From the NCBI GenBank assembly GCA_902609645.1, contig CACLSS010000004.1, positions 1 through 57,898 on the forward strand: a DNA stretch of 57,898 bases. The letters run 5' to 3'. Both the position numbers and the translations under genes were made by a program. Position 1 is the stretch's first letter, and each line of letters begins with the position of its first letter. This document shows, one piece after another, positions 21,496 to 26,690 of this stretch. The notes below the pieces were generated by a model. That model saw only the letters and a program-made list of their open reading frames with translations, was not told the origin of the DNA and made no database searches. The stretch is from an uncultured Pelagibacteraceae bacterium. GTDB taxonomy: Bacteria; Pseudomonadota; Alphaproteobacteria; Pelagibacterales; Pelagibacteraceae.

Positions 21496-21762
21496 ATGCC
21501 AAATACCAAATCAGCAATAAGAAGAGTTAAAAGGGTTAAAAGACAATCATTGGTCAATAAATTAAGGCGAAGCAGATACAAATTAGCAATTAAAAAAATC
21601 AATAAGTTGATCGAAAAAAAAGATATTAAAGAAATAAATAAGTTTTTCCCAACTTTTCAATCTGAATTAATGAAAATCGCTAAAACTGGGGTTGTAAAAA
21701 AAGAGAATGCATCAAGAAAAATAGCGAGAGTTTCTAAAAAAATAAAAAAAATCAATAAGTAG
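21496..21762 (+). CDS. rpsT: 30S ribosomal protein S20
   Basis: A 16S rRNA-binding protein, 88 residues, strongly basic. The N-terminus MPNTKSAIRRVKRVKRQSLVNK and the later GVVKKENASRKIARVSKKI match S20. The in-frame ATG at 21496 is used; an ATG at 21492 is out of frame. rpsT followed by dnaA is a common alphaproteobacterial order. Confidence 0.95.
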   Translation: MPNTKSAIRRVKRVKRQSLVNKLRRSRYKLAIKKINKLIEKKDIKEINKFFPTFQSELMKIAKTGVVKKENASRKIARVSKKIKKINK

Positions 21763-22008
21763 TTGTAATCAATTTCTAGTTGTCTAACTTTTCAAAAAAG
21801 TTTGATCAAACTTTCAATGAGAAACTATATATAGAAATTTATTATTTCAAGTTGAATTCTATTTTTATTATTTTCGACCACAGCGATAATTTTTTTTGGA
21901 TTTCATCCTCAACGATCATTCTACAACTTCACTCGGTTTTTTTTTTAATATTCATAAAAAAAAGTTGAATTAAAAAATAATATTAATTAAAAAAGAAAAT
22001 CTTTTATT
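21763..22008. other. Non-coding AT-rich region upstream of dnaA
   Basis: 246 bp without a credible gene; the 62-codon frame at 21780-21968 has no family features. It holds an 18-bp perfect palindrome (21797-21814), the short palindrome CTATATATAG (21825-21834), a direct repeat AAGTTGAATT at 21849-21858 and 21962-21971, and T/A runs. I find no sequence close to the DnaA box TTATCCACA. It could be the dnaA leader and promoter or part of an origin; nothing here decides this. Confidence 0.5.
21797..21814. repeat. 18-bp perfect palindrome upstream of dnaA
   Basis: AAAGTTTGATCAAACTTT is its own reverse complement over all 18 bases. It is 35 bp after rpsT and 195 bp before dnaA. There is no T-run directly behind it, so it does not look like an intrinsic terminator. 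A dimeric regulator's operator or an origin element are both possible. Confidence 0.8.
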
Positions 22009-23394
22009 ATGGAAAAATCATCTAAAATTGAAAAAAACTTAGTTTCAGAAGAAAATATTTTAAATTGGAATTCTGTTCAAGACAGCTTTCAAAAAGCATT
22101 TGGTAGTGAGATTTATTCAAGTTGGCTCAAAAATATATCTTTATTAAAGGAGTTTAATCATTATGTTATTTTAGGAGTGCAAACTAGATTTTTTAGGGAT
22201 TGGATTACATCCAGATATGCAGACAAAATTTTAAATGAGTTGCAAAAACACAAAATAAGTATAAATCGAATTGAATTTAAAATAGAGGGTGAAAGGTCTA
22301 GTAGTAAAACTATATCTCAAAAACCAGACATTAATAAAATCTCAGATATTAAAGACGGGGTTTTGAATTATAATCGACTAAATCCTAACCTGAGTTTTGA
22401 AAATTTTATAGTTGGAAAAAGTAATAATCTAGCCTTTCTGTCTGCGAAAAAAATAACCTCAGAACTTTCGAGGTATAATCCACTATTTATTTATGGTGGT
22501 GTTGGATTAGGAAAAACACACCTTATCAATGCTATAGGTCTCACACTAAAAGATAGTTCTAATGTGATGTTTATTTCTGCTGAGAGATTTATGTATCAAT
22601 TTATTAAATCAATAAAGAAAAATGAAATGGTTAATTTTAAAGATTTTTTTAGAAAGGCTAATGTTTTTATTATCGATGATATACAATTTATAAGAGGAAA
22701 AGAGGGTCTGCAGGAGGAATTTTTTCATACTTTTAATAGTTTATTCGACAAAAGTGCTCAGATAATAATTTCCTCGGATCGTCCACCAAATAGATTGGAC
22801 AGAGTTCAAGATAGAATAAAATCCAGATTATCTGGAGGACTAGTCGTAGATATTGGAGTACCAGATTATGATTTAAAAAAGAAAATCTTAAAAAAGAAAA
22901 TTATTGAGTTTCAAAATTCTTTTCACGAATATCCAAATTTAAATGAAGAAATAATTGATTATATGGCTAAAGAGCAAAATTTAAATATTAGAGAATTAAT
23001 TGGAATATTTAATAGAGTGGTTGCATTTAGCAAAATGAGTAAAAAACCTCTAAATGTGAATGATTGCAAAATAATTCTAAAAGACGTTCATAATAATAAC
23101 AAAGTCATTAGTATCGATAAAATTCAAAATGTTACCTCAAATTTCTTTAGCATAAATCTTCAAGAGATGCTTTCACAAAGAAGATCGAGACCTTTGGCTA
23201 GACCAAGGCAAATAGCTATGTATTTAGCAAAAAAATTAACCACAAGATCTTTACCTGAAATAGGTAGAAAATTTGCAAACAGGGATCATACAACTGTAAT
23301 TCATGCTGTTAAAACGATAGAAAAATTATCTCAAGACAATAGTTTAATGAAAAAAAATATTGATGAAATAACATCGATAATTTTGAGTGATTAG
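22009..23394 (+). CDS. dnaA: Chromosomal replication initiator DnaA
   Basis: An AAA+ initiator that binds and opens the origin. The 461 residues show domain I (about 17-90, WNSVQDSFQKAFG...YSSWLKNI), a short linker, and the AAA+ domain. That domain has Walker A GGVGLGKTHLINAI (about 162), Walker B FIIDDIQFIRGKEG and sensor motifs. The C-terminal DNA-binding domain carries PRQIAMYLAKKLTTRSLPEIG and the signature FANRDHTTVIHAVKTIE. Full length and intact. dnaN follows after one base. Confidence 0.97.
   Translation: MEKSSKIEKNLVSEENILNWNSVQDSFQKAFGSEIYSSWLKNISLLKEFNHYVILGVQTRFFRDWITSRYADKILNELQKHKISINRIEFKIEGERSSSKTISQKPDINKISDIKDGVLNYNRLNPNLSFENFIVGKSNNLAFLSAKKITSELSRYNPLFIYGGVGLGKTHLINAIGLTLKDSSNVMFISAERFMYQFIKSIKKNEMVNFKDFFRKANVFIIDDIQFIRGKEGLQEEFFHTFNSLFDKSAQIIISSDRPPNRLDRVQDRIKSRLSGGLVVDIGVPDYDLKKKILKKKIIEFQNSFHEYPNLNEEIIDYMAKEQNLNIRELIGIFNRVVAFSKMSKKPLNVNDCKIILKDVHNNNKVISIDKIQNVTSNFFSINLQEMLSQRRSRPLARPRQIAMYLAKKLTTRSLPEIGRKFANRDHTTVIHAVKTIEKLSQDNSLMKKNIDEITSIILSD

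Positions 23395-24620: not shown

Positions 24621-26690
<2,070 letters not shown>

Follow-up and report, generated by a model that had tools for sequence, protein, structure and literature searches.

The gap between rpsT and dnaA in an uncultured member of the Pelagibacteraceae is, judging by its comparison with relatives, probably a control region of dnaA with an NrdR-type box, CTATATATAG, as its chief conserved feature. The window (the whole stretch of 57,898 nucleotides, or 57.9 kb, that was analyzed) is contig C4 of a source draft of 898 kb in 37 contigs, and the closest named relatives of its DnaA (67-68% identity) belong to Pelagibacteraceae, SAR11. The local gene order is mutM, rpsT, the gap, dnaA, dnaN, gyrB, and a regB-like kinase gene. 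The gap (positions 21763-22008; 246 bp, 79% A+T) is flanked on the plus strand by rpsT (30S ribosomal protein S20; 21496-21762; TIGR00029, 71.8 bits) and dnaA (22009-23394; TIGR00362, 460.8 bits). The gyrB gene (24642-26690) encodes 682 aa; an 803-position proteobacterial model matches it in two stretches, the best of which ends at position 569, and a 639-position gyrB model covers it end to end at a score slightly under the cut-off. The sequences named in the original prediction, namely an 18-bp palindrome, CTATATATAG, and two copies of AAGTTGAATT 113 bp apart, were all present in the A+T-rich gap between rpsT and dnaA, and no DnaA box (TTATCCACA, with at most one mismatch) was found there, as had been stated. 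A scan of the window against Rfam gave nothing at the gathering score, a promoter scan of 21500-22100 returned 3 matches vs. 3.7 expected by chance, and a word search of the main text of the 2009 Pelagibacter structured-RNA paper (PMC2704228) found neither dnaA nor rpsT nor S20.

The comparison covered 61 genomes, 37 from the window's family (f1) and 24 from a sister family (f2), with the window's own genome designated G000. The set of rpsT-dnaA gaps comprised 43 loci, the window's own among them, after two (L045 and L049) that had no rpsT upstream were removed from 45; it leaves out L013, which begins within dnaA, and loci outside or far from SAR11. The same-genus alignment contained 24 loci, 10 of them near ones including the window (clade A) and 14 further away (clade B), and it showed conserved islands amid drifting A+T-rich sequence. 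The five best 10-column blocks were TAGTTG at the rpsT stop, the GTTG of the first AAGTTGAATT copy, an ACGAT block, CTATATATAG, and CAATTTCTAG. The mean information per column over these loci was 1.41 bits for CTATATATAG and 0.36 bits for the palindrome, compared with 0.69 bits for the whole alignment, and conservation thus reversed the ranking obtained from the sequence alone, placing CTATATATAG above the palindrome.

The CTATATATAG dyad (21825-21834, no strand assigned), a candidate NrdR box located by alignments and a core scan, belongs to a family of symmetric variants (CTATATATAG, CTAAATCTAG, CAATATTTAG, CTACATGTAG, and CAACATGTTG) that is described by C-W-A-N-A-T-N-T-W-G. The strict core CWANATNTWG occurs in 34 of the 43 gaps, vs. 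1.3 ± 1.1 (maximum 6 in 500) under a Markov null, and five further gaps carry a one-mismatch core at the aligned place. The central AT and the two end bases (C and G, at a nine-base spacing), i.e., the palindromic core of an NrdR box, are retained in 39 of the 43. The strict core was absent in the L032, L036, L037, and L040 gaps, and none of 16 dnaA gaps of the sister family contained it. Among 441 orthologous pairs between 529 kb of G026 and the complete G032 genome, only dnaA has the core in both upstream gaps, and the same was true of 243 pairs between 260 kb of G029 and G032. Between G026 and G029 (248 genes), four genes had the core in both: dnaA, gcrA, the divergent neighbor of gcrA, and a response regulator gene (PF00072; L222 in G026, start 17176, minus strand), upstream of which the core dyad was observed in each of these two genomes. 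Because the bare core is common (152 matches in the window's own genome vs. 129 for the reversed pattern), the case is built on conservation and context, not on the match.

CWANATNTWG resembles the NrdR box consensus. Passages of PMC9110341 place the conserved G-C pairs of a box pair at 9/18 and 40/49, that is, 9 bp within a box and 31 bp between boxes, and describe kinking of the DNA at AT steps and contacts made through D15, R17, and arginines including 26-29. Passages of another report put 16-bp NrdR boxes usually 15-16 bp apart, with 14-17 and 24-27 tolerated, and give a 530- to 1000-fold weaker binding of Escherichia coli NrdR when there is one box (PMC12051234). An nrdR gene (TIGR00244 over its cut-off) was present in 54 of the 61 genomes, including the window's. 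In the one SAR11 NrdR protein that was read, that of G002, the Zn-ribbon and the ATP-cone were both recognizable, and D15, R17, and R26-R29 were present. The second zinc motif of this protein (P0003) is C-N-C followed by NGG in place of a second CxxC; PMC9110341 gives two CxxC motifs. The conservation, the box geometry, the common box at other genes described below, and the presence of nrdR in the genome can be read off by sequence comparison.

An NrdR box at dnaA was not reported among the matches listed in our literature search, and an earlier prediction in Rodionov and Gelfand (2005) is possible; the accessible parts of PMC12176259, PMC2892513, PMC4898720, PMC5343134, and PMC4989314 do not mention one. 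A portion of PMC4898720 describes nrdR genes clustered with dnaA and other replication genes; this concerns gene neighborhood and not a box. NrdR ChIP-seq exists for a chlamydia, as far as the available text of PMC4989314 goes. Among the matches listed, no paper connected NrdR with GcrA in the way proposed here, and the sole match listed for NrdR and Pelagibacter concerns copper transport.

The same box is found at the gene for ribonucleotide reductase (RNR), at gcrA, which encodes a cell-cycle regulator, and at the HU gene. A CAACATGTAG/ACACAACATGTAGTTGT-type box lies 45-48 nt before the ATG of the RNR gene in all 26 loci of the window's family that were examined, its own genome included (56 genomes of both families had a match, and one sister-family locus was viewed beside these), and these RNR boxes serve as a positive control for the NrdR reading. 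For gcrA, 54 genomes had a match, and the best 30 loci were sampled. Of the 12 loci from the sister family, 10 carried a pair of strict boxes at a spacing of exactly 31 bp, and the other two were within one mismatch; in the window's family, the strict core was present in 15 of 18 loci (absent in L328, L341, and L344, the last perhaps mis-anchored), and over these 15 the partner at -31 averaged 6.67 of 8 positions, the top of all offsets. Such a pair, the published arrangement, is shown by gcrA and also, if one mismatch is allowed, by the G032 RNR gene. A box that matches 7 or all 8 core positions stands at -96 to -100 before the HU gene in 28 of 29 loci of the window's family (L421-L449), strictly in 15, and some of these loci have a second box 31 bp on. 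The HU sample consisted of the best 30 loci of 61 (29 from f1, 1 from f2), and the window's own genome had only a weak family match (G000:C8:8737-9009).

Whole-genome searches for the 31-bp pair (at most one mismatch) returned the gcrA site as the sole match in G000, G004, G026, and G029, the RNR site as the sole match in G032, five matches including gcrA and HU in G034, and none in G033, vs. 0 or 1 match for the reversed control in each of these seven genomes. Over the 24 sister-family genomes there were 91 matches vs. 12 for the reversed control; over the 37 genomes of the window's family the excess was modest (40 vs. 22), and one real site per genome would account for most of it. In the sister family, 31-bp box pairs (L406, 2460-2500; L407, 2511-2551; L409, 2516-2556) stand ahead of an operon with a DsbA-like gene and smc, and ahead of two small ORFs (71 and 75 aa; no Pfam match in L409) that are followed by amino-acid ABC transporter genes. 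A further sister-family pair near rsmG was rejected, as it sits within coding sequence. In G026, G029, and G032, a search of the 1100 bp upstream of smc did not find the smc-operon box, and smc is therefore excluded from the regulon predicted for the window's family, for which RNR, gcrA, hup, and dnaA are our best reading.

Within this predicted regulon, we hold the putative sites at RNR and gcrA to be likelier than the dnaA site, which we grade as somewhat better than even because there is a single strict box, because a single box loses affinity in E. coli, and because the sister-family gaps have no strict core. The box lies 156-253 nt before the dnaA start, farther than at the other box-bearing genes. 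In the same-genus dnaA gaps there is one strict box, and no constant high-scoring partner was found at 30-33 (or 40-43) bp. A partner matching about 5 of 8 positions was found at -30 in the dnaA gaps of other genera (z 3.1); that of clade A at -30 carries less weight (z 2.0), and nothing stood out clearly in clade B. Two gaps from other genera (L028 and L033) have two strict boxes, CTATATATAG/CAAAATATAG and CTACATTTAG/CTAAATATTG, 20 bp apart vs. the usual 31.

The central TTGATY of the palindrome precedes the TATATA or TATATG of the next element, CTATATATAG, by a constant 18 bp in 8 of 10 clade-A loci, and the palindrome may for this reason cover a -35 element. One could accordingly read CTATATATAG as a -10 element that serves the main promoter of dnaA and is retained on that account. 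This is unlikely in our view, because the hexamer becomes TAAATC, CATATT, or CAAATA in clade B and the dyad positions mostly remain, no TTGAC-like hexamer was seen by eye at the right upstream distance in that clade, and the core is also found with symmetric changes (CTACATGTAG and CAACATGTTG). A -10 element and an NrdR-type box can both hold for CTATATATAG, since NrdR boxes frequently overlap the RNA polymerase site (PMC9110341, in part).

The perfect 18-bp palindrome AAAGTTTGATCAAACTTT (21797-21814, no strand assigned), which was followed through alignments and shuffles, had been offered as a possible dnaA operator. When the gap was shuffled by dinucleotides, 38 of 2000 shuffles produced a perfect palindrome of at least 18 bp, and the 57.9-kb window contains three such palindromes vs. 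a mean of 1.25 in 20 shuffles; measured against the gap, the palindrome is a mild outlier, and against the window it is ordinary, i.e., near chance. Its conservation across relatives was not borne out: the exact 18-mer was found in only 2 of the 61 genomes (G000 and G004, at dnaA in both), and symmetry of at least 18 bp in the DNA exists at this place in 2 of 10 clade-A loci. The idea of a dnaA operator therefore stands for the gap, through CTATATATAG and the GTTG repeats, but not for the 18-mer, which is poorly conserved and near chance. We find it distinctly improbable that the palindrome is itself an operator, or that it terminates rpsT. A hairpin is suggested by 9 or 10 pairs about the center (G-U allowed) in 6 of 10 clade-A loci, by the folding of the window's 36-nt palindrome segment at -6.2 kcal/mol vs. 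-1.5 ± 1.5 in shuffles, and by that of the L010 segment at -7.3 vs. -1.8 kcal/mol; the other six motif-bearing loci, however, fold weakly (-1.3 to -4.1 kcal/mol) and close to their own shuffles, and the region is unconserved in clade B. A search for intrinsic terminators (a G+C-rich hairpin followed by a T run) found none, and the palindrome hairpin is almost wholly A-T. Most likely the palindrome is incidental, lying perhaps over a -35 element or acting as a weak rpsT terminator.

A second set of conserved sites, as the alignments indicate, is the GTTG repeats; the features described next are given on the plus strand. Two tandem 17-bp near-repeats, ATCAATAAGTAGTTGTA and ATCAATTTCTAGTTGTC (21752-21785), extend across and behind the rpsT stop; each is one mismatch from CWANATNTWG in the window, and all 24 same-genus loci keep the stop-codon TAGTTG without change. 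In the first AAGTTGAATT copy (21849-21858), GTTG starts at a distance of 26 bp from the box's C, and 23 of the 24 loci keep this spacing (27 in L021). This copy is followed by TTTCGACCACAGCGATAA (21872-21889), the first conserved TTTC..C...CGATnAT block, and by TTTCATCCTCAACGATCATTCTACAACTT (21901-21929), which combines the second such block with an inverted GTTG element (TACAACT); the alignment has two copies of the block in clade A and one in clade B. At the place of the second AAGTTGAATT copy (21962-21971), much of clade B has TTGAA and, after 14-15 bp by eye, a TATAAA-like hexamer, possibly a dnaA-proximal promoter in that clade. An exact 10-mer direct repeat, long A/T runs excluded, is ordinary for such sequence (358 of 2000 dinucleotide shuffles), and the two AAGTTGAATT copies are members of the conserved GTTG array. 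RNA pairing of AAGUUG with CAACUU was considered and rejected, as the flanking A/G and C/T seem by eye not to covary across the gap loci, and the GTTG elements are consequently read as DNA sites.

Could these be low-affinity sites through which DnaA regulates its own gene? Four or more copies of RGTTGWA or its reverse within 250 bp were found only at dnaA, both in the 57.9-kb window and in the 260 kb of G029, and the gaps at the putative origin described below hold TGTTGATAA-like forms that have GTTGA in common with the repeats. We nevertheless doubt it, because AGTTGAATT is unlike a DnaA box in its GATAA half, 42 of the 43 dnaA gaps are without a DnaA box (at most one mismatch), and no window with at least four copies, dnaA included, exists in 529 kb of G026 or in G032.

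The gap had also been put forward as an unconventional origin element, and it is indeed A+T-rich, bears repeats, and adjoins dnaA. By comparison with relatives, the rpsT-dnaA gap is most likely not a replication origin, and we regard an unconventional origin beside dnaA as very improbable. Among alphaproteobacteria, the experimentally known origin, that of Caulobacter, has hemE on one side and a COG1806 gene on the other (PMC1914354, part of the text); the flanks of the dnaA gap are rpsT and dnaA, and its relatives keep a hemE/COG1806-type locus elsewhere. This hemE/Kinase-PPPase gap is intact in relatives (Kinase-PPPase and URO-D were confirmed in G032). The sample was the best 30 loci of 50 genomes with a match, of which 29 were used since L326 is cut at a contig end; the gap measured 269-282 bp in all 29 (27 from f1, 2 from f2). 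DnaA boxes (at most one mismatch) were present in 25 of these 29 gaps vs. 1 of 43 dnaA gaps, with none in the window's own and no cluster of them, and the first ten hemE gaps held 17 boxes vs. 0.74 in shuffles. Across these loci (L297-L325), the length is nearly constant, the sequence drifts, and the boxes are of the TGT..ATAA type. We consider the hemE/Kinase-PPPase gap a candidate for a compact SAR11 origin. The window's own draft contains only the last 31 positions of hemE (C18:15558-15650), so that for the window's genome the placement of the origin at hemE is by inference.

Genome-scale signals were coarser. The hemE gap lies 62.5 kb from dnaA in G032 and 85.4 kb in G026. The G032 GC-skew minimum (97.9 kb) is 31 kb from the hemE gap and 32 kb from dnaA, and in G026 the breakpoint (286 kb) stands 169 kb away from dnaA and 255 kb away from the hemE gap; skew thus does not favor hemE and failed to tell the two loci apart. 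The breakpoints, at 98 vs. 129 kb for dnaA in G032 (interval -60 to 264), 286 vs. 117 kb in G026 (238 to 330; TA skew 52 to 448), and 20 vs. 119 kb in the first 260 kb of G029 (8 to 192), fall at neither dnaA nor hemE, and most of these bootstrap intervals are wide and include dnaA. Against an origin at dnaA, the three pairs of G026/G032 inversion junctions nearest to it had midpoints, by eye, at 41.8, 67.0, and 69.5 kb, with the hemE gap at 67.0 kb; the farther junctions had midpoints of about 108 and about 118 kb by hand, and as these differ, the inversion axis is coarse.

SAR11 bacteria rank among Earth's most abundant cells and are reported to lack CtrA. The NrdR-type box common to RNR, gcrA, HU, and dnaA offers a concrete hypothesis, in which nucleotide supply sets replication capacity. 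Whenever dATP is high compared with ATP, for example during slowed DNA synthesis, NrdR in its dATP/ATP form would bind its boxes; this binding would change, in concert, the transcription of dnaA, gcrA, and the genes for RNR and HU, and initiation capacity would thereby follow the nucleotide pool. For dnaA, we infer both the occupancy of the box by NrdR and the sign of its effect. Passages of a Caulobacter study describe a delay of S phase entry by raised dNTP, with a matching soft-agar phenotype of an nrdR deletion, and an unchanged DnaA level in a dgt mutant (PMC12186491). More broadly, NrdR, a dATP/ATP sensor, may have turned in SAR11 into a replication-cycle regulator of nucleotide supply (RNR), the initiator (dnaA), the S-phase regulator (gcrA), the nucleoid protein (HU), and, in the sister family, possibly the smc operon, tying initiation directly to the nucleotide pool, a proposal that we advance tentatively and rate a little short of an even chance. 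We regard the gap as a genuine and conserved control region of dnaA, and if binding is shown, dnaA would be a new target of a known regulator family; the box in this gap hints at a coupling of nucleotide supply to the initiation of replication. The comparison also points to hemE for the group's origin, and it removes a misleading candidate beside dnaA.

Among known systems, the closest is the NrdR operator of RNR genes, with which the SAR11 sites have in common the C-N8-G dyad with an AT center, the motif at the SAR11 RNR gene, the presence of nrdR, and the 31-bp pair at gcrA; dnaA differs from it in having one strict box, far upstream, and in that the target is the replication initiator. The functional single NrdR box of Pseudomonas aeruginosa topA, as described in a portion of PMC4409342, is likewise one box at a DNA-metabolism gene other than RNR, but the gene is another one and NrdR activates it there. 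Relatives within SAR11 have the alphaproteobacterial oriC locus at hemE/COG1806, which bears DnaA boxes and is nearly constant in length there; it differs in place from the dnaA gap, being 63-85 kb away in the two genomes measured. In the Caulobacter circuit of CtrA, GcrA, CcrM, and DnaA, the regulated cell-cycle genes include dnaA and gcrA, as they would here; Pelagibacter is reported to have no ctrA ortholog (PMC2877005, in the part available for both statements), and in SAR11 it is instead an NrdR-type box that dnaA, gcrA, RNR, and HU appear to have in common.
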